Virus record (IMG/VR): IMGVR_UViG_3300047554_000471
Location: 1 to 64,000 of that record
Strand: one strand, 5' to 3'
DNA from: a virus
Length of the DNA: 64,000 nt
The notes beneath the pieces are model-generated. The model was given only the letters and a program-made list of their open reading frames with translations, was not told the origin of the DNA and did no database searches. The translations under genes were made by a program, and so were the position numbers. Each line of letters starts with the position of its first letter. The first letter of the stretch is position 1. Below, piece by piece: positions 4,764 through 55,974 of this stretch.

Positions 4764-7700
4764 GTGGCTAAAAACTTAATCAACATTCCGGCTAAAAACT
4801 TAGAAGCTTCTCAAGTAGAGACTTCATTAGGGAGTGCTATCAAAACAAAATTAGTCAAGAGTTTAGAGGATCTAGTATCACAAGAGGCTTATGTTACGCT
4901 TAGTGAAAAGGAGAAACAACAAAAACCACAATCACCAGTCGTTAAGTCTTTTGGTTTCTATAGCAATGGAGTGACTAGCTATCCAAATGATGTTATTCGT
5001 TTGGATATTGAAAATGCTAATAATCAGTATTTAGAGTCGAACTATCGGGTCGATGGATTTATTCAATCCAACAACGAGATAACACTTGACCCAGAGAAAA
5101 ACCTTAGCGACTTAAATTACATCTCAGGTAAGTATAAAGTTACTTACGCCTTTCATCGCAACTTATTGGGCTCTGGTGATGGTCATAAATTGCAAATTCA
5201 GGAGATTAGTGCTGATGGTTTGGAGATACGAGTTGTACCTGCAATATCAAATAACATATCCAATGTTGACTTTCTGGATTTTTTTGCTGATAGTTTCTTT
5301 AAACTACCTAAGAGTCAAACATTAACAAACTTATTCCTTTTTAAAGATGCAAATACTCCAATGCGTGTATTTGATTATGTACAAGATAAGTTTACATTTT
5401 CAACTACACCATATAGTATAATCTTTAAACTAAATACTCCAGCTCCTGATGGTGTTAATATTGGAGATTTAATTTGGTTATCACAGCAAGTTAGTGATAG
5501 TTTGGTTGATACGATTACAATTGTACCACCAAAGATAAAGACTAGAAAAACTCTTATCGCAGGTCCAAACTGGGATGCTATAAATAAGGACCAAACAGCT
5601 GTTGGTACTCAGTATAAGGATTGGGACGATTTATTATCATCCACATCTCAGACCTCAGAAGATATCATAAAGACTCTTCTTAGTAGTTCTTTCTTAGAGG
5701 GCATCAACCTTAACATTGATTTTAGGCACTTTAATAATCATATCCAATTTGGATCAGCTACCGAGCGCTTATTAAACTTTAAATATAAAATGCAGTTGAT
5801 AGAGTCTTATGACTCTAGAATTGCTGCACTAACTACGGATCTTACGGGTTTACCTAGTAGTAGTGTTTCAAGTAGTACTTACTTTCAAACAAATATTACA
5901 GATACAAAAACAAAGAAAGCGGCTTTGTTGGGGTCTATGGACTCGTATGAAAAATACTTGTTCTATCAATCTAGTAGTTATGTGACAAACAGCTTTGGAG
6001 AGTTTTACCCATCTACATGGCCAAAATCAAATAGCACAAAACCATACACAAACTATGCAGTAACATCTTCACAAGTTGAGGAGTGGTTTGATGGAATTTA
6101 TTCTAGTGCTAGCTTATACGATCAAAATAACCAATCTGCTTTATACAAGCTTATTCCTGCCCACGTACTAGAAGATAGTGTTAATGAGGAGTATGTATTG
6201 TTTACGCATATGATTGGTCATTACTATGACCTCATGTTTGCTTACATCAAGCACATGACTAAGTTACACACTCGTGAGGAATCTATATTAGAGGGCTTCA
6301 GCAAAGACTTGATTTATCACGTTGGTAAGAACCTGGGTATAGATTTTGAAAATGGTAACAGCTTAAAGGAATTGTGGGATTATGCTTTAGGTACTAGTGT
6401 ATCCGGATCGTTAGCATCGACTTATAGTATAACCAGCGAGGATAAGACAAAAGAGACTTGGAAGCGTATTATCAATAACCTCCCATACCTCTTGAAAACA
6501 AAAGGTACGGAGCGTGGTATTAGAGCATTAATTAACTGCTTTGGTATTCCGCAGACGATTCTGAGAATCCGTGAATATGGAGGTGCTGAACCAGAGTTTG
6601 ATACAAAAACTGACTGGGTTCATGAGCGCTTTAATTATTCAACTACAATTGGGTATAATGGTCAAACATCAGGTAACCCAATACAAGCAGTTAAAGCTGA
6701 TTGGGATGCTATAGGATCACAATCGTTATATCCAAACACAATCGAAGTACGAGCTAAGATGGCTGTCAGCCAATCTAAAGTACAACGATTGATGGAGAAA
6801 TCCGGATCGTGGTATTTGGAAGCTTCAATGTCTGGAGCATCTCAATACTTAAAATTGTATGTGGGTAATAATGGTGGTTCTACATCTACATGGGGAGCTT
6901 CTACAGCATGGGCAACTGCAAGTGTTAGTTGTTCTGTGTACGATGGTGAGTGGTATCATATTGCGGTTAAAAGATCACAACCGACTAATACGGATACTGT
7001 TTCACAAACCTACACCTTAGTTGTTAAAAAAGCAAAATACGAGAAAGTTGTATTTTCACAAAGTGCGTCGATTAGTGTTAATGGATCAACAAGCCAATCA
7101 TACAATAATGGATGGACAACTTCTCACATCTCGAGTAGCAACTTATGGTTACCTGGAACTGGATCTTATACGATAGCACAGAGTCATTCTGCTAATCTTT
7201 GGACTGGTTCAATACAAGAGTTGAGATACTGGAGTGAGCCACTTCAAGACAGTATTCTTGACAATCACACACTAGCTCCGACTAGCTATCAGGGTAACTT
7301 AGCAGACACCTATACGGGTAGCACTTCTAGTTTTTACACACTATTAATGCGTCATCCGTTAGGAGCTGACAACAAAAAATTAACGCTTACTGGTAGTAAT
7401 GGTTTGGTAGTATCATCATCACATCCAAATCAACAATATAAAACAAGTACTAACCTATACGCTTACAATTTTAGTGGATCAATACACAAATCAAACGTTG
7501 AGATTCACTCAATGGAGTGGCCTGATTTAGGAACAAATAGGCAAGTTGGTAACAAGATAAGAATTGACGAAACCTTCTTAGCAGGAGATACTCAACTTTA
7601 TAGAGATAACAAGGCTGAGAGATCGTTAACAGACAACTATCCCGCTGATACACCGCGATTAGGAGTTTACCTTTCTCCAGTAAACGAAGTCAATCAAGAT

Positions 7701-9395
7701 ATTGCGGAACAGTTTGGTGGTCTTAGTATTGATGATTTTATAGGTACTCCTGGAGACTTGAACAAAGATCATTATCCAGACTTAGAGAATCTGCAATATG
7801 AGTATTTGAAAAAATACACAATAGGCAGATACAGACCACAAAATTATATAAGACTTATACAACACTTTGATTCAGCTTTATTTCAGTTGATTAAGAAGTT
7901 TGTACCACATCGTGCTAATACACAAGTTGGTTTTGTAATAGAACCAAACATATTAACTAGAAGTAAGATTGCAACAAAGCTGCCGACTTTCGAAGAAAAC
8001 CACTACAGTTCTTCTTTGGATGTTGGACCAGAAACATATATTACACCAGGTGGTTTTGTTCAAGATGGTGATGGTGAACCATTCCGTGATGGATCGGGTT
8101 ATGTACAAGAGGGTACTATTGGTGGTGATGAATCAGATTATATTACGTTAGGTGGTGATCAACAAAGTATATCGGAGTTCAATGATGTTATATCATATCC
8201 AACTTACGAGTATGAGTCACCTCGCAGAGATATAGAGAGTTTACCAGCCTTTGAGGATACAGAAATTGACTTTGTAGTCTTGGATGGTACCAATTTAGAA
8301 ACTACACCAGATTTTGCTTCAAGCTACGCAAATGAATTTACTAGAGTAGGAGTCGATGATAATCCATCTACTAGTGGAAGTATGGCTGGTGAAGCTAAAA
8401 CAAGAACTACTGCATATGGTAGAGATTTAATTGCTGATGGATCTCAATATGTATTCACAAGCTATTATCAAAGTGGAAGTGGAGCAGGATTAGCATGGAT
8501 ACCATTTACTAGTAGTCGATATGACTACCATGAACCATATAGTCCAGTTATCATGGATAACACTCCAAGTAACATTTCAAATGTTAGTGGTGATATATAC
8601 GACATCGACATATATGGTGGAAAAGCTTTTAGCAATCATACTGCATATTCTAGTATAGCAACTAGTGCGACAAATACAAAAATAACATCAAGCGCTGCGT
8701 GGGATGAAAACGCATGGTTATCACAATATGGACTACAGATCAGATCCTTATACTCAACTACAACAGCACTTGATCCAGTGTCCGGATCTGTTGCGGTAGG
8801 TTATTGGAGTTTAGCTGGCACAACCTATGATCCTAATGTTAGAGGATTGCATTTTTATCAAGCAGCTTCAACAGGAACACCAATAACAGCATCTTTAAGA
8901 TTACCAGCATTCTTTTACAATGAGGATGATCCAAAAACAAAAAATTATATTTACGAAATTACCATAAGCACAGATGAGACTGGCACTGGTGTAACGAACT
9001 ATTTAGAGTTGCATTTTGGCGATCTAGATTGTGGCTTAACTGGATCAGTAACCCCAACCTCAACCCAGACAGATGTTGTGTTTACAACTTCAGCACTCGG
9101 TAATTGGTTAGGCTTAAGGTTGTATATTGGTGGTAGTCTAAGTGGTACATCGACGTGGATACCAAAATTAAAAGTAAGATGCTTAAACTATCGAGCAGAT
9201 GTACAAGATTTTCACTTACGTGATAGTTATGGTATGAGGAATGCTCGCTACGACGGTTGTAAAATGTCATCAACAGATTGGAATATTAATAGTCCCGATA
9301 CCTCTGATGGAGGTCCAGTAGTACAAGTAACAGTTGGTGGTGGTAAGCAATTAGGTGTAAAACCAAACGTCAAGGGAACTTTCGAAATAAAGTAA
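4764..9395 (+). CDS. Giant virion protein with LamG-like domain, probable baseplate component
   Basis: 1543 residues, starting at GTG just after a TATTTATA box. Residues about 470-595 contain helical sequence (HMIGHYYDLMFAYIKHMTKL, then YLLKTKGTERGIRALINCFG) of a type I associate with baseplate-like proteins of large marine phages. Residues about 640-860 resemble a LamG/concanavalin-A sandwich (NTIEVRAKM, GEWYHIAVKRS, ELRYWSEPL). The C-terminal third is Gly/Ser/Thr-rich and beta-like. The role, baseplate or receptor-contacting protein, is inferred from size, the LamG domain and the neighbours. Confidence 0.75.
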   Translation: MAKNLINIPAKNLEASQVETSLGSAIKTKLVKSLEDLVSQEAYVTLSEKEKQQKPQSPVVKSFGFYSNGVTSYPNDVIRLDIENANNQYLESNYRVDGFIQSNNEITLDPEKNLSDLNYISGKYKVTYAFHRNLLGSGDGHKLQIQEISADGLEIRVVPAISNNISNVDFLDFFADSFFKLPKSQTLTNLFLFKDANTPMRVFDYVQDKFTFSTTPYSIIFKLNTPAPDGVNIGDLIWLSQQVSDSLVDTITIVPPKIKTRKTLIAGPNWDAINKDQTAVGTQYKDWDDLLSSTSQTSEDIIKTLLSSSFLEGINLNIDFRHFNNHIQFGSATERLLNFKYKMQLIESYDSRIAALTTDLTGLPSSSVSSSTYFQTNITDTKTKKAALLGSMDSYEKYLFYQSSSYVTNSFGEFYPSTWPKSNSTKPYTNYAVTSSQVEEWFDGIYSSASLYDQNNQSALYKLIPAHVLEDSVNEEYVLFTHMIGHYYDLMFAYIKHMTKLHTREESILEGFSKDLIYHVGKNLGIDFENGNSLKELWDYALGTSVSGSLASTYSITSEDKTKETWKRIINNLPYLLKTKGTERGIRALINCFGIPQTILRIREYGGAEPEFDTKTDWVHERFNYSTTIGYNGQTSGNPIQAVKADWDAIGSQSLYPNTIEVRAKMAVSQSKVQRLMEKSGSWYLEASMSGASQYLKLYVGNNGGSTSTWGASTAWATASVSCSVYDGEWYHIAVKRSQPTNTDTVSQTYTLVVKKAKYEKVVFSQSASISVNGSTSQSYNNGWTTSHISSSNLWLPGTGSYTIAQSHSANLWTGSIQELRYWSEPLQDSILDNHTLAPTSYQGNLADTYTGSTSSFYTLLMRHPLGADNKKLTLTGSNGLVVSSSHPNQQYKTSTNLYAYNFSGSIHKSNVEIHSMEWPDLGTNRQVGNKIRIDETFLAGDTQLYRDNKAERSLTDNYPADTPRLGVYLSPVNEVNQDIAEQFGGLSIDDFIGTPGDLNKDHYPDLENLQYEYLKKYTIGRYRPQNYIRLIQHFDSALFQLIKKFVPHRANTQVGFVIEPNILTRSKIATKLPTFEENHYSSSLDVGPETYITPGGFVQDGDGEPFRDGSGYVQEGTIGGDESDYITLGGDQQSISEFNDVISYPTYEYESPRRDIESLPAFEDTEIDFVVLDGTNLETTPDFASSYANEFTRVGVDDNPSTSGSMAGEAKTRTTAYGRDLIADGSQYVFTSYYQSGSGAGLAWIPFTSSRYDYHEPYSPVIMDNTPSNISNVSGDIYDIDIYGGKAFSNHTAYSSIATSATNTKITSSAAWDENAWLSQYGLQIRSLYSTTTALDPVSGSVAVGYWSLAGTTYDPNVRGLHFYQAASTGTPITASLRLPAFFYNEDDPKTKNYIYEITISTDETGTGVTNYLELHFGDLDCGLTGSVTPTSTQTDVVFTTSALGNWLGLRLYIGGSLSGTSTWIPKLKVRCLNYRADVQDFHLRDSYGMRNARYDGCKMSSTDWNINSPDTSDGGPVVQVTVGGGKQLGVKPNVKGTFEIK

Positions 9396-9413
9396 GATTT
9401 ACAAAACAAGACA

Positions 9414-9421
9414 TATTTATA
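9414..9421 (+). promoter_or_regulatory. TATTTATA box (probable late promoter)
   Basis: TATTTATA preceded by CA, 15 bases before the ATG at 9437. The upstream context (TTTACAAA...ACA) resembles that of the box at 55670. Confidence 0.55.
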
Positions 9422-9436
9422 TAAAAACAAATAGCA

Positions 9437-10192
9437 ATGGGATACTTAGATAATTCAACCGTCACAGTAGATGCTATTCTTACGAATAAGGGTCGTGAGA
9501 TTTTAGCAGGTGGTGGTAAATTAAACATCACAAAATTCGCGTTATCTGACGACGAAGTCGACTACGACTTATGGAATCCGGCTCACACTCTGGGTACAAA
9601 CTACTATGGAGCTGTGATTGAAAACATGCCGGTATTAGAAGCGTTGCCTGATGAAACTCAAATGTTACGTTACAAGCTTGTAACTCTTCCAAAAGATGTT
9701 ATAGGTATTCCAGTAATTAGCGTTTCACCAACGGCAGTAAGCTTCACATCACTCAAACAAGAGATTGTAGTTAGTCCAGCTACCCTTAACTTGGCAGGAG
9801 GAAACGACTCACTAGGTTATACAGCGATCTTAGCAGACGACACTGTTGCGACACTAGAGGTTGCTGCAGATGGAGGTGTTTCAAAAGCACCATCTAACAC
9901 TTCACCAGTAGGACTTAACCCAGAAGTATTAGCTGCAAATGCAAATGCATCCGGTGTATCAAGTTTCTTAGATGATGAGGTTACTAGTGTAACAACTGCA
10001 GGTAAGACAATCGTTAGAGTTGGTAAGAAGTTTGTATTGAAACCTAAAGCTCAAGCAAACTTAACAACAATCAAGCGTACATTATTAACAATCATTGGTA
10101 ACGAAACCGGTGGATTCAAGACTGTATCAGTATCAGTTGATCCTACAAACTTCGCTGCTCTTGATATTCAAGTAGGATTAGCAAATAAGTAA
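9437..10192 (+). CDS. Conserved phage structural protein
   Basis: 251 residues. The N-terminus (MGYLDNSTVTVDAILTNKGR, then GGGKLNITKFALSDDEVDY) is of a type I associate with large phages, in which the LTxKGRExLA and KFALSDDExDY patterns recur; the family has no established enzymatic role that I can name. The C-terminal half is beta-rich and could be an Ig-like or decoration domain. It is co-directional and 6 bases ahead of the next gene, so the two probably share an mRNA. A tail or baseplate structural role is inferred. Confidence 0.7.
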   Translation: MGYLDNSTVTVDAILTNKGREILAGGGKLNITKFALSDDEVDYDLWNPAHTLGTNYYGAVIENMPVLEALPDETQMLRYKLVTLPKDVIGIPVISVSPTAVSFTSLKQEIVVSPATLNLAGGNDSLGYTAILADDTVATLEVAADGGVSKAPSNTSPVGLNPEVLAANANASGVSSFLDDEVTSVTTAGKTIVRVGKKFVLKPKAQANLTTIKRTLLTIIGNETGGFKTVSVSVDPTNFAALDIQVGLANK

Positions 10193-52380: not shown

Positions 52381-52388
52381 TATTTATA
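52381..52388 (+). promoter_or_regulatory. TATTTATA box (probable late promoter)
   Basis: TATTTATA preceded by GC, 9 bases before the ATG of the collagen-like fibre at 52398. Confidence 0.5.
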
Positions 52389-52397
52389 TAAAAAGCT

Positions 52398-55013
52398 ATG
52401 GCAAGAGGTGAAACAAGTTTACCAAATTTAAACACAAGAAATAGAACGGTTGCAATCACATCGACAGGCATTGTTGTATCTGGTTCGGCAGCTAAAATTG
52501 CTATATCAGGATCATCCAATACATCAATTGGAACGGCAACTAACGATGAACTATTTGCTTCAAGAACCTACGTAGCGGATCAGGTTGCTAATTTAGTAGC
52601 TTCTGCACCAACAGCGTTAAACACACTGGATGAATTAGCAGCTGCGTTAGGAGATGATGCTAACTTTGCAACAACTACATCAACTGCATTAGGTAACCGA
52701 CTTCGTGTTGACATTAGCAATCAGGGTTTAACATCTACACAACAAGCTAATGCTAGAACAAACCTGGGATTAGGTACAGCAGCAACAACTGCAGCAACTG
52801 ATTATGCAGCTGCTTCACATACACACTCATATCTACCATTAGCGGGTGGATCATTGACAGGAAAGCTTACCTTTTACACATCCGATACGAATAACGGATT
52901 TGCATGGATAGTAAATAGTGATGAAGCCGGTATCACTTTTAAGAATACCGGAGATGGTGATAGCAACTCGTACCTTAACATCTTCACAAAAGATAATGGA
53001 AACGAGTATATCAAGTTTTCACACACACACTATAGTACCGGTGCCAAAGATTGGGTTGATATTAAGGATGGTGTCGTAAGATTTAACGGAGATTTATACG
53101 TTAATGCATCACAATCGGGTACCGCTGCGGCTGGATCAAATGCATTATCGGGAGGTAGTAGAGTTTGGCATTTGGGTGATTTCTCTTCAACAAACGTATC
53201 CAACTGGAATACAGCATATGGATGGGGTAATCACGCTTCAGCAGGATACCTAACATCTGTAACTACTATCACTGGAAACGCAGGAACAGCAACTAAATTA
53301 CAAACAGCTAGAAGCATTGCAGGTGTTTCTTTTGATGGATCTGGAAATATTAGCATACCAATCACTGGATTATCCGATGTAGCAATTACAACACCATCAA
53401 ACAACCAACTACTGGTATATAATAGCTCAACCAGCAAGTGGACTAATACATCAGGAATTACTGGACCTACTGGCCCAACCGGACCTCCAGGCCCAACTGG
53501 ACCTAGTGGAACTAACGGATCAACTGGTCCTACTGGCCCAATCGGTCCTAGTGGACCTACTGGACCTACCGGAGCAGCTGGTCCAACTGGAAGCGTAGGA
53601 CCCACTGGACCTACTGGCCCCACTGGACCTACTGGCCCAACTGGAGTTGGCATTTCAACAGCAGGAGTAACGGGTGGAGCATTGACAATAAGACTTACAG
53701 ATGGATCAACTCCAATCAGCTCAGTCAATGTTGTTGGCCCTACTGGACCCACTGGTCCGACAGGGCCCACTGGCAGTCCAGGACCCACTGGACCTACTGG
53801 CCCCACTGGACCTCAAGGGCTAAGAGGGGATACTGGAGCCACTGGACCTACTGGCCCAACTGGCCCAGGTTCAACAGTAGCAGGACCTACTGGCCCTCCA
53901 GGACCCACTGGACCTACTGGCCCCACTGGACCTACTGGACCTAGTGGTGGACCTGGTCCAACTGGACCTACTGGCCCTCCGGGATCAACTTCGTATAGTG
54001 CAACATCACTATCATCAACTGGATTTGGAAGCAGTACACAGACTTGGTATCAATCACCAACTGGAATTGCAGGATATAATGGTAGCTGGGCAAGTTATTT
54101 AATCTCAAATCACGGAGATGGTGCAACTTACTATAACCAATCTCTAATCATGCCATTCTGGGGACCACCTCAGTATTCAAGATTAGAGGGAGGTACTCAA
54201 AGAGGTCCTTACACATTTATTACTACAGAAAACCTAAGTACCTATGCTTTGTCAGGACCTACTGGTCCTACTGGACCCACTGGCCCTACTGGATCACCTG
54301 GTCCCACTGGCCCTACCGGACCTAGCGGTCTGAAAGGGGATACTGGTGCTACCGGTCCAAGTGGAGCTACTGGACCAACTGGACCTAGTGGTCCAACTGG
54401 ATCTCCAGGACCTACCGGACCTACTGGAGTAGGAATCTCTTCAGCAGCAGTGTCAGCAGGAAGATTGACAATATCTCTAACAAACGGAACAACGCCAATA
54501 AACTCAGTTAACGTAGTAGGACCAACTGGACCTACTGGTCCCACCGGGTCGCCAGGACCTACTGGAGCTACTGGACCTGCGGGTGCTGCATCGACAGTAG
54601 CAGGACCTCCAGGACCTACTGGTCCTCAGGGGCCTAGTGGCGCAACTGGACCTACTGGTGGACCTGGCCCAACTGGACCTACGGGCTCCACTGGTCGTTC
54701 AGCTTACGAGTCTTGGTTAGCTGCAGGGAATAGTGGAACAGAGGCTGCCTTCTTAGCAGCATTGAGAGGATCAACTGGACCTACTGGACCTACTGGATCA
54801 CCAGGACCTACCGGACCAACCGGTCCTACCGGACCTTCAGGAACTGGATCTCCAGGACCTACTGGGGCACCTGGTCCAACTGGACCTACTGGCCCTCCGG
54901 GACCTCCAGGATCAGGTGGAGGTGGTGGTTATACTGGTGATGTACCAGTTACAGATGGTCGAGGTATGTTTATATTGCAGTTTGTTGATGGTTTACTTGT
55001 AAATGTGATGTAA
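52398..55013 (+). CDS. Collagen-like tail fibre
   Basis: 871 residues. Residues 1-350 are standard phage fibre sequence ([54 protein letters not shown]). Five collagen-like blocks of Gly-X-Y triplets follow at about 353-416, 447-529, 620-677, 708-766 and 791-838, mostly Gly-Pro-Thr with some Gly-Pro-Pro and Gly-Pro-Ser. They are separated by short beta modules (GVGIS...SSVNVV, twice) and a [20 protein letters not shown] insert that resembles inserts in other phage collagen-like fibres. The C-terminus is Gly-rich then [20 protein letters not shown] trimeric triple-helical fibre is likely. The next gene encodes a 2-oxoglutarate oxygenase. Confidence 0.93.
53454..53645 (+). repeat. Collagen-like Gly-Pro-Thr block 1
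   Basis: 64 residues of Gly-X-Y triplets (residues 353-416). Confidence 0.9.
53736..53984 (+). repeat. Collagen-like Gly-Pro-Thr block 2
   Basis: Residues 447-529, the longest block, with short breaks ([19 protein letters not shown]). Confidence 0.9.
54255..54428 (+). repeat. Collagen-like Gly-Pro-Thr block 3
   Basis: Residues 620-677, after an about 90-residue globular insert. Confidence 0.9.
54519..54695 (+). repeat. Collagen-like Gly-X-Y block 4
   Basis: Residues 708-766, preceded by the second copy of the GVGIS...SVNVV module. Confidence 0.9.
54768..54911 (+). repeat. Collagen-like Gly-X-Y block 5
   Basis: Residues 791-838, after the SAYESWL insert; it ends in Gly-Pro-Pro triplets. 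Confidence 0.9.
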
Positions 55014-55020
55014 CAGCTAG

Positions 55021-55051
55021 TTGCATAGTTTTAATTTTTTACGTATATTTT
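55021..55051 (+). promoter_or_regulatory. Bacteroidota-type promoter candidate
   Basis: TTG at 55021-55023, a 20-base spacer, then TATATTTT at 55044-55051, resembling TTTG-N19-21-TAnnTTTG. It replaces the TATTTAT box expected before the oxygenase gene at 55056. Confidence 0.35.
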
Positions 55052-55055
55052 AGTT

Positions 55056-55649
55056 ATGAATAATAGACCCACATTCCAACCTACTCAAAATGTAGACCAG
55101 ACTCAGTACTATTGGTTTGAGAATGGTTTTACGGAAGAAGAGGTGAACCATATACAACTCACAGCAGAAAAGTATCAAGAACATGATGCCACAATAATCG
55201 GTAATCAGGAAGAGGTGGAGGAAGCCATCAGAAAGTCTAAAATCAGATGGCTTCCAAACAACTCACAATGGTTGTGGATGTATAGTAGGATTGCAGATAT
55301 GGTAACAGAAGCAAACAATGCTCTGTGGCATTTCGATATTAACTCTATTATGGACGACATTCAGTTCACAGAATATGAAGCTGGAGGTGGTCATTATGAT
55401 TGGCACTTAGATATAGGACCTTCTACAATATCACATAGAAAAATATCTATTGTAGTTCAGCTTTCAAATCCTGATGAGTATGTGGGTGGTGATTTGGAAT
55501 TAATGCCAGGTAATTATTCATTTGCTGTACCTCGTAAAAAGGGAGCTGTTGCAATCTTTCCATCATTCATGTTACACAGAGTAACACCAGTGACTGAGGG
55601 ATTAAGACGAAGTGCCGTTTTGTGGGTTGGTGGAAGCCACTACAAATAA
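55056..55649 (+). CDS. 2-oxoglutarate/Fe(II) oxygenase, prolyl-hydroxylase-like (PKHD/PiuC type)
   Basis: 197 residues. The double-stranded beta-helix iron site is intact: HYDWHLD supplies H117 and D119, MLHRVTPVTEG the distal H174, and R184 ten residues later would hold 2-oxoglutarate. The segment VQLSNPDEYVGGDLELMPGN, the cupin core and the LHRVTPVTxGxR ending match PKHD-type hydroxylases, related to prolyl 4-hydroxylases. It starts 42 bases after the collagen-like fibre and is not a fibre itself. Hydroxylation of collagen Pro or Thr is an attractive guess; DNA or other proteins are alternatives, since such enzymes are common in T4-like phages. Confidence 0.88.
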   Translation: MNNRPTFQPTQNVDQTQYYWFENGFTEEEVNHIQLTAEKYQEHDATIIGNQEEVEEAIRKSKIRWLPNNSQWLWMYSRIADMVTEANNALWHFDINSIMDDIQFTEYEAGGGHYDWHLDIGPSTISHRKISIVVQLSNPDEYVGGDLELMPGNYSFAVPRKKGAVAIFPSFMLHRVTPVTEGLRRSAVLWVGGSHYK

Positions 55650-55701: not shown

Positions 55702-55974
55702 ATGGAAAACAAGCAATTTAGCGCAGAAGAACTTGAGCAAATCAAAGTCTTACAAGAGAAGTACAATGTATTAGGTATTCAACTAGTACAATTAAAGTTA
55801 GCAAAAAAGAATGCTGAAACCTATCTTAATGGCTTGATCGAGCAAGAGGGATTACTAGAAAATCAGATTGTAGAGACGAACGAGGAAGAAAAGAAGCTAG
55901 CTCAAGAATTAGACACAAAATATGGAGCTGGTTCTTTGGATCTTGAGACCGGACAATTTACGCCAAATAGCTAA
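55702..55974 (+). CDS. Small coiled-coil protein
   Basis: 90 residues. A long helix with heptad character (EELEQIKVLQEKYNVLGIQL, then KKNAETYLNGLIEQEGLLEN) is followed by a short Gly/Ser C-terminus (YGAGSLDLETGQFTPNS). No enzymatic motif. Having its own TATTTATA box, it may be a small structural or chaperone protein between the fibre and sheath units. The C-terminal pattern GSLDxETGxFTP is one I associate with large phages. Confidence 0.6.
   Translation: MENKQFSAEELEQIKVLQEKYNVLGIQLVQLKLAKKNAETYLNGLIEQEGLLENQIVETNEEEKKLAQELDTKYGAGSLDLETGQFTPNS

Follow-up and report, generated by a model that had tools for sequence, protein, structure and literature searches.

A collagen-like tail fibre and the 2-oxoglutarate (2OG)/Fe(II) oxygenase encoded behind it in the virus record IMGVR_UViG_3300047554_000471 are best explained as a substrate and its enzyme. 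The oxygenase would be a fibre-dedicated collagen hydroxylase, probably a prolyl hydroxylase, a reading that is given a probability of about 0.74 on the basis of the sequences and a predicted fold. Central to it is the observation of a tight evolutionary association between collagen fibres and the phage subfamily to which the enzyme belongs. The record is linear and 69,591 bp long; the window, meaning the whole stretch that was analysed, comprises its first 64 kb (positions 1 to 64,000). The features of the pair are as follows.

52398..55013, plus strand: collagen-like tail fibre, 871 amino acids (open reading frame (ORF) call, Pfam Collagen, triplet count)
53454..53651, plus strand: Gly-X-Y run 1, 22 triplets
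53736..53870, plus strand: Gly-X-Y run 2, 15 triplets
53883..53990, plus strand: Gly-X-Y run 3, 12 triplets
54255..54434, plus strand: Gly-X-Y run 4, 20 triplets
54519..54590, plus strand: Gly-X-Y run 5, 8 triplets
54603..54701, plus strand: Gly-X-Y run 6, 11 triplets
54768..54848, plus strand: Gly-X-Y run 7, 9 triplets
54855..54944, plus strand: Gly-X-Y run 8, 10 triplets, with a Gly-rich stretch at its end
55056..55649, plus strand: 2OG/Fe(II) oxygenase, 197 amino acids, proposed fibre (collagen) hydroxylase (PF13640, phrog_61, AlphaFold2, Foldseek)
55404..55412, plus strand: HxD iron ligands H117 and D119, invariant in the family alignment
55575..55577, plus strand: distal iron ligand H174, invariant in the family alignment
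55605..55607, plus strand: 2OG-binding R184 (Arg type), invariant in the family alignment

The fibre matches Pfam Collagen (PF01391; E 2e-34, 117 bits) and is built around extended Gly-X-Y runs. It contains 107 triplets, with eight runs of at least six, while 2000 shuffles of its residues at the same composition gave a maximum total of 9 triplets. Residues 1-352 are non-collagenous. The triplets include 54 Gly-Pro-Thr, 8 Gly-Pro-Ser and 6 Gly-Pro-Pro; proline occupies position X in 73 of the 107 and position Y in 14, threonine is the commonest Y residue (67), and lysine occurs in a single triplet. A preliminary description of the region had reported five Gly-X-Y blocks, mostly Gly-Pro-Thr; the composition holds, and the number is corrected to eight. 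The N-terminal 345 amino acids are 65% identical to a collagen fibre in the near relative L003, which encodes two such fibres (4821-6500 and 8138-9964). The window's fibre resembles one of these at its N-terminus and the other in its middle domain, a sign of fibre recombination.

The oxygenase ORF begins 42 bases past the fibre stop and matches PF13640 (E 2e-14; 54.6 bits against a cut-off of 27) and phrog_61 (E 1e-37). H117, D119, H174 and R184 are all present and are invariant across a 38-row family alignment composed of the window and IMG/VR loci only, so the intact HxD...H...R oxygenase reported earlier is confirmed. The AlphaFold2 model has a mean pLDDT of 90.6. Its first Foldseek match in the PDB is the Pseudomonas putida prolyl 4-hydroxylase (P4H) with EF-Tu (4iw3; E 1e-10, TM 0.72), followed by human PHD2 and then PiuC/3dkq, and a probability of 1.00 to PHD2 and P4H points to a double-stranded beta-helix fold. 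Sequence comparison puts PKHD-type hydroxylases (PiuC/YbiX; 3dkq, 9ghl) closest among proteins of solved structure. The earlier label "PKHD/PiuC type" is apt to that extent; as a family assignment it fails, as the PKHD NCBIfam equivalog models all score far below their cut-offs (64.1 bits against 143, 40.3 against 180, 33.9 against 336 and 31.3 against 399). The family profile matches the Bacillus anthracis P4H weakly along its full length (E 0.002). The named families do not include the enzyme, a 2OG oxygenase resembling prolyl hydroxylases, and none of 50,697 phage records reaches 60% identity to it. It also matches phrog_3531 (E 5e-11), and the cyanophage "ferrochelatase" proteins of that family (S-SSM5 SSSM5_043 and similar) are, by sequence, probably misnamed 2OG oxygenases.

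Linkage of the enzyme subfamily to collagen genes

Relatives were collected from IMG/VR with the enzyme as the sole bait. To count as collagen, an ORF needed 8 or more triplets lying in runs of 7 or longer, and runs that were Gly-rich or dominated by Ser, Thr or Asn were disregarded. Linkage meant a collagen ORF on the same strand within 10 kb and was scored on dereplicated loci whose upstream flank spans 3 kb or more. Such an ORF is present at 32 of 38 loci in clade 1. A second clade was defined by strong matches, directly beside collagen, from a scan for Gly-Pro-Thr repeats, and its further relatives were gathered blind to collagen; here the count is 15 of 15. When every neighbouring family is counted, second place after collagen goes to the sheath in clade 1 (18/38) and to a family at 8/15 loci in clade 2. 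In clade 1, collagen lies 26 bp to about 7 kb from the enzyme, nearly always upstream and rarely downstream. In clade 2, it is upstream at all 18 dereplicated loci that extend 1.5 kb or more in that direction, and several collagen genes overlap the enzyme gene. On a maximum-likelihood tree of 126 oxygenases, the collagen label needs 7 changes, compared with 41.8 when labels are shuffled. Collagen and hydroxylase candidate thus occur in one viral genome and are conserved together. The preliminary description had proposed a phage-encoded fibre-modifying pair, to be doubted if the oxygenase were equally common in relatives lacking collagen fibres; this survey of relatives supports the pair, and no such equality is seen in this subfamily.

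The association extends beyond adjacent genes. Enzyme and collagen are both encoded, far apart, in four IMG/VR records (G006, G008, G009 and G020) and in the 735-kb phage LR756501. Among the records of 60 kb or more whose enzyme has no collagen close by, G016 and G019 lack collagen altogether, although G020, a relative of G019, has it. At LR756501.1 394651-394959, collagen-like stretches are broken by in-frame TGA, reflecting either decay or recoding. Linkage through shared recent ancestry was rejected, since the pairing holds at 45-60% identity, in the sheath-bearing contexts of many clade-1 phages, among the other head and connector genes that accompany clade 2, and in bacteria.

The bacterial cases come from GTDB genomes, where most enzyme relatives are unlinked to collagen. 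Two lie beside collagen genes, in a Chromatiales bacterium (L311:9860-12132) and in an Acidimicrobiales metagenome-assembled genome (L316:1-1688); they are among the closest GTDB relatives and are sisters on the tree. The L311 pair is chromosomal and adjoins trpB/trpA-like ORFs, so the pairing needs no phage context.

Related genes and genomes served as controls. The cyanophage sister enzyme has collagen at 0 of 33 loci, and collagen is absent from the two complete genomes tested, those of Pelagibacter phage HTVC008M and cyanophage S-SSM5. Among 43 records of sheath relatives (47-81% identity, mostly fragments), all 43 have neither collagen nor the enzyme. The sheath and the small gene at 55702 are constant among relatives, and the fibre/oxygenase pair is present or missing jointly. 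This 90-amino-acid gene (55702-55974) was accordingly rejected as a member of the cassette, being a conserved sheath neighbour also found in relatives without the pair.

The reverse scan selected 80 loci by Gly-Pro-Thr repeats alone. An enzyme relative is present at 9, strong in 7 of those, and a full search of 48 of the records added 4 further strong enzymes. Microcystis phage Mel-JY01 encodes collagen and no such oxygenase. The implication is one-way: the enzyme implies collagen, but collagen does not imply the enzyme.

A second enzyme follows the composition of the collagen. At many clade-2 loci, the oxygenase is directly followed by the gene for a protein of about 590 amino acids (L442:10543-12327, L239:1-1757 on the minus strand and L443:10534-12285 are examples). 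This protein has GT25, PLOD-glycosyltransferase and 2OG domains and matches human LH3 (E 4e-33), mimivirus R699 and the L230-type lysyl hydroxylase domain. Lysine occupies Y in 15-33% of triplets at all 39 clade-2 loci with the LH3-like gene and in at most 1% at all 26 without it; after dereplication, Y-lysine is found in 25 of 25 with the gene versus 0 of 18 without. L496 has neither the gene nor Y-lysine, though it is placed among carriers on the tree. Clade 1 follows the same trend (Mann-Whitney p 3e-4), with L174, L011, L157 and L175 as exceptions. Judged by composition, phage 2OG enzymes at these loci track the neighbouring collagen, a parallel that independently supports the proposed pair. 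With one lysine in its triplets, the window is predicted by this matching to have no LH3-like gene, and none is seen among its ORFs scanned. Glycosyltransferases also occur near collagen and oxygenase in clade 1 (L144, L151, L162, L168, L174, L176, L185, L005 and L011); they are of GT25 or GT1 type, several with an OGFOD2-like 2OG domain.

The target residue and the alternatives

In the proposed mechanism, fibre and oxygenase are probably made together, from one late transcription unit, and the enzyme would meet unfolded fibre chains in the cytoplasm of the infected cell. Using O2, Fe(II) and 2OG, it would hydroxylate the Gly-X-Y chains, most likely at prolines, before the triple helix forms. 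In animals, such collagen modifications must precede trimer formation (PMC8968730). The resulting trimers of the Gly-Pro-Thr-rich rods would be more stable, which would help the rods to fold and to persist on the virion. That the enzyme acts on the fibre, targets proline and has a stabilising effect is what we infer from the genes.

The likely target was sought in 22 collagens within 500 bp of the enzyme (a short gap being allowed for L311). Only Ala, Pro, Ser and Thr reach at least 2% of triplets in all 22; Lys falls below 2% in 13, Asp in 5, Asn in 6 and Gln in 6. Prolyl hydroxylation is preferred because, of these four residues, proline is the sole candidate used by known collagen-type 2OG enzymes, and the target is probably a proline of the fibre collagen. 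Within these sequences, proline is best kept at X: the X-Pro fraction is at least 0.067 throughout, whereas Y-Pro is zero in several collagens and Y-Thr goes down to 0.01. Y-Pro is scarce in the phage partner collagens and makes up 31-40% of triplets in the bacterial partners L311 and L316 (0.31-0.40). The main site may tentatively be placed at the X proline of Gly-Pro-Thr, unlike the Y site of animal collagen, with odds slightly short of even. 4-Hydroxyproline at X is reported to stabilise helices with Thr at Y, which would fit Gly-Pro-Thr. Animal-like 4-hydroxyproline at Y fits poorly, since Y-Pro is found in only 14 of the window's 107 triplets. The B. anthracis P4H hydroxylates both X and Y of (PPG)n model peptides, with Y preferred (PMC8968730). 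Lysyl hydroxylation by the window's oxygenase was rejected, given the single lysine of the fibre's triplets.

The enzyme might instead modify the fibre on Thr, Ser or Ala, for example to create a sugar attachment point. Thr is the commonest Y residue in the window and in most partner collagens, and Ala, Ser and Thr, like Pro, are kept in all 22 adjacent collagens. However, Y-Thr is only 0.01-0.07 in L316, L174, L311 and L005, the predicted fold is closest to prolyl hydroxylases, and no 2OG enzyme is known to hydroxylate collagen Thr; such a target is unlikely. The BclA-like glycosylation of Thr raised in the preliminary description gains no support: the window ORFs that were scanned include no recognisable glycosyltransferase.

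Still less probable as the target is a protein of the host, for instance EF-Tu or a ribosomal protein, on which related bacterial hydroxylases act; the enzyme would then only be travelling with fibre genes. Its best solved-fold match is a P4H bound to EF-Tu, and the cyanophage sister enzymes exist without collagen. Against this, unrelated phages from two distant clades have kept the enzyme next to collagen, collagen co-occurs even when unlinked, and the same pairing recurs in two bacteria. This linkage disfavours DNA as well as host-protein substrates, both of which had been left standing earlier and are now much less likely.

It is improbable that the substrate is a nucleotide sugar or small molecule used to decorate the virion or its fibre. 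Predicted gene clusters for sugars or secondary metabolites have been described as including cyanophage 2OG enzymes (PMC7824862), and genes for sugar transferases, FkbM methyltransferases and tryptophan-halogenase-like proteins lie near some relatives. However, none of these gene types was recognised in the scanned ORFs of the window, and these neighbours occur at no more than about 7 of 38 loci, apart from an unannotated cluster at 14/38, against 32/38 for collagen. Simple hitch-hiking in tail-fibre regions, which hold both genes and recombine as blocks, is very improbable, because both genes of the pair are missing from sheath relatives that do have fibre-type genes in front of the sheath, collagen is absent at the loci of sister oxygenases, and bacterial chromosomal pairs such as L311 lie outside any phage context.

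Several observations weigh against a fibre-dedicated prolyl hydroxylase. Most phages with Gly-Pro-Thr collagens lack the enzyme; hydroxylation is thus not needed for phage collagens generally, and the oxygenase was rejected as a general collagen companion. In six clade-1 representatives collagen is missing within 10 kb of the enzyme, and the 92-kb record G016 encodes the enzyme and no collagen anywhere. X-Pro is common in bacterial collagens anyway, and the gene-level result cannot tell a Pro target from Thr, Ser or Ala. The LH3/Y-Lys matching in clade 2 amounts to only two changes on the tree. Finally, the 2OG ligand is not the Lys of classical collagen P4H and the B. anthracis enzyme; the invariant R184 is of the Arg type, as found in PHD2 and PiuC.

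Genomic setting and transcription signals

The window carries T4-like structural genes (terminase, portal, major head, sheath and tube). By sheath and portal comparison, its nearest cultured relatives are Microcystis phage Mel-JY01 and Flavobacterium phage immuto. A Shine-Dalgarno-like site precedes only 6 of 40 long plus-strand ORFs, and a Bacteroidota host is plausible.

One further feature lies directly 5' of the fibre gene.

52381..52392, plus strand: TATTTATATAAA motif, putative late-promoter-like element

With at most one mismatch, TATTTATATAAA has 14 matches in the window against 1.45 expected, mostly right before genes (4747, 9414, 11338, 28246, 46918, 52381, 55670, 58426 and 60155), and it is possibly a late promoter. 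It precedes the fibre (52381) and the gene after the oxygenase (55670), and the window scan found none between fibre and oxygenase, which suggests a single transcription unit. A scan for promoter and terminator consensus sequences returned nothing exceeding chance.

Other neighbours were noted among the relatives. A family of unknown function lies directly 3' of the oxygenase at 14 of 38 clade-1 loci (L157:10569-12302, for example) and has no Pfam or PHROG match. A tryptophan-halogenase-like gene is found near oxygenase and fibre at L146:2903-4522 and six more clade-1 loci; Pelagibacter phage HTVC008M likewise has one close to a 2OG enzyme. At L113:1-6660 and L120:1-6702, Gly-Ser-Ser/Gly-Thr-Ser repeat ORFs of more than 2200 amino acids adjoin collagen fibres.

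Comparison with known systems

Collagen hydroxylation has so far been thought largely an animal speciality. According to a study of collagens in Escherichia coli prophages, bacteria and viruses have no prolyl hydroxylases that serve collagen (PMC3368898). P4HA genes proved abundant in marine viruses in a survey that describes their use as still "cryptic" (PMC9301287). The present pair supplies a concrete candidate substrate for such phage hydroxylase genes, and as a two-gene cassette it makes the question testable. Collagen hydroxylation is probably common among phages. The chances are about even that tailed phages possess a widespread collagen-maturation system, in which a dedicated prolyl hydroxylase would act mostly on X proline (Gly-Pro-Thr to Gly-Hyp-Thr, where Hyp is hydroxyproline), joined by an LH3/GLT25-like lysyl hydroxylase/glycosyltransferase where the fibre has Y-lysine. 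If real, this system would amount to animal-style collagen chemistry in the bacterial world, and would suggest that collagen hydroxylation outside animals is ancient or repeatedly acquired. The small enzyme-substrate pairs also offer a way to have bacteria make recombinant collagen in hydroxylated form, and in glycosylated form if the LH3-like partner is included.

Among characterised enzymes, the closest in structure are P. putida P4H (an EF-Tu hydroxylase, 4iw3) and human PHD2, with a TM of about 0.72 for the predicted model; their identity to the oxygenase is 16-21%, and their substrates are not collagens. PiuC/YbiX PKHD-type enzymes (3dkq, 9ghl) have the same HxD...H...R core, but the NCBIfam equivalogs score 31-64 bits against cut-offs of 143-399. 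The B. anthracis P4H (3itq/5hv0), which presumably acts on BclA in vivo, is likewise a prokaryotic single-domain prolyl-hydroxylase type, though the profile match is weak, the sequence is distant and its 2OG ligand is Lys instead of Arg. The cyanophage T4-GC 412/phrog_61 2OG oxygenases belong to the same PHROG family at about 34% identity but, unlike the window's locus, have no nearby collagen (0/33).

Viral collagen modification is known from mimivirus, which has the L230 lysyl hydroxylase/glucosyltransferase, the R699 glucosyltransferase, a prolyl hydroxylase and collagens such as L71 (PMC9546862). The tailed-phage case appears new: no report of a phage collagen and hydroxylase pairing was found in the open-access library searched, and subscription papers may hold related claims. 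Unlike mimivirus, a eukaryotic giant virus, these are tailed phages, and their putative hydroxylase is of a different, PHD/PiuC-like single-domain kind with linkage to tail fibres. Like mimivirus, they encode collagens together with enzymes predicted to modify them, and the LH3-like protein of clade 2 matches both R699 and the L230-type lysyl hydroxylase domain.

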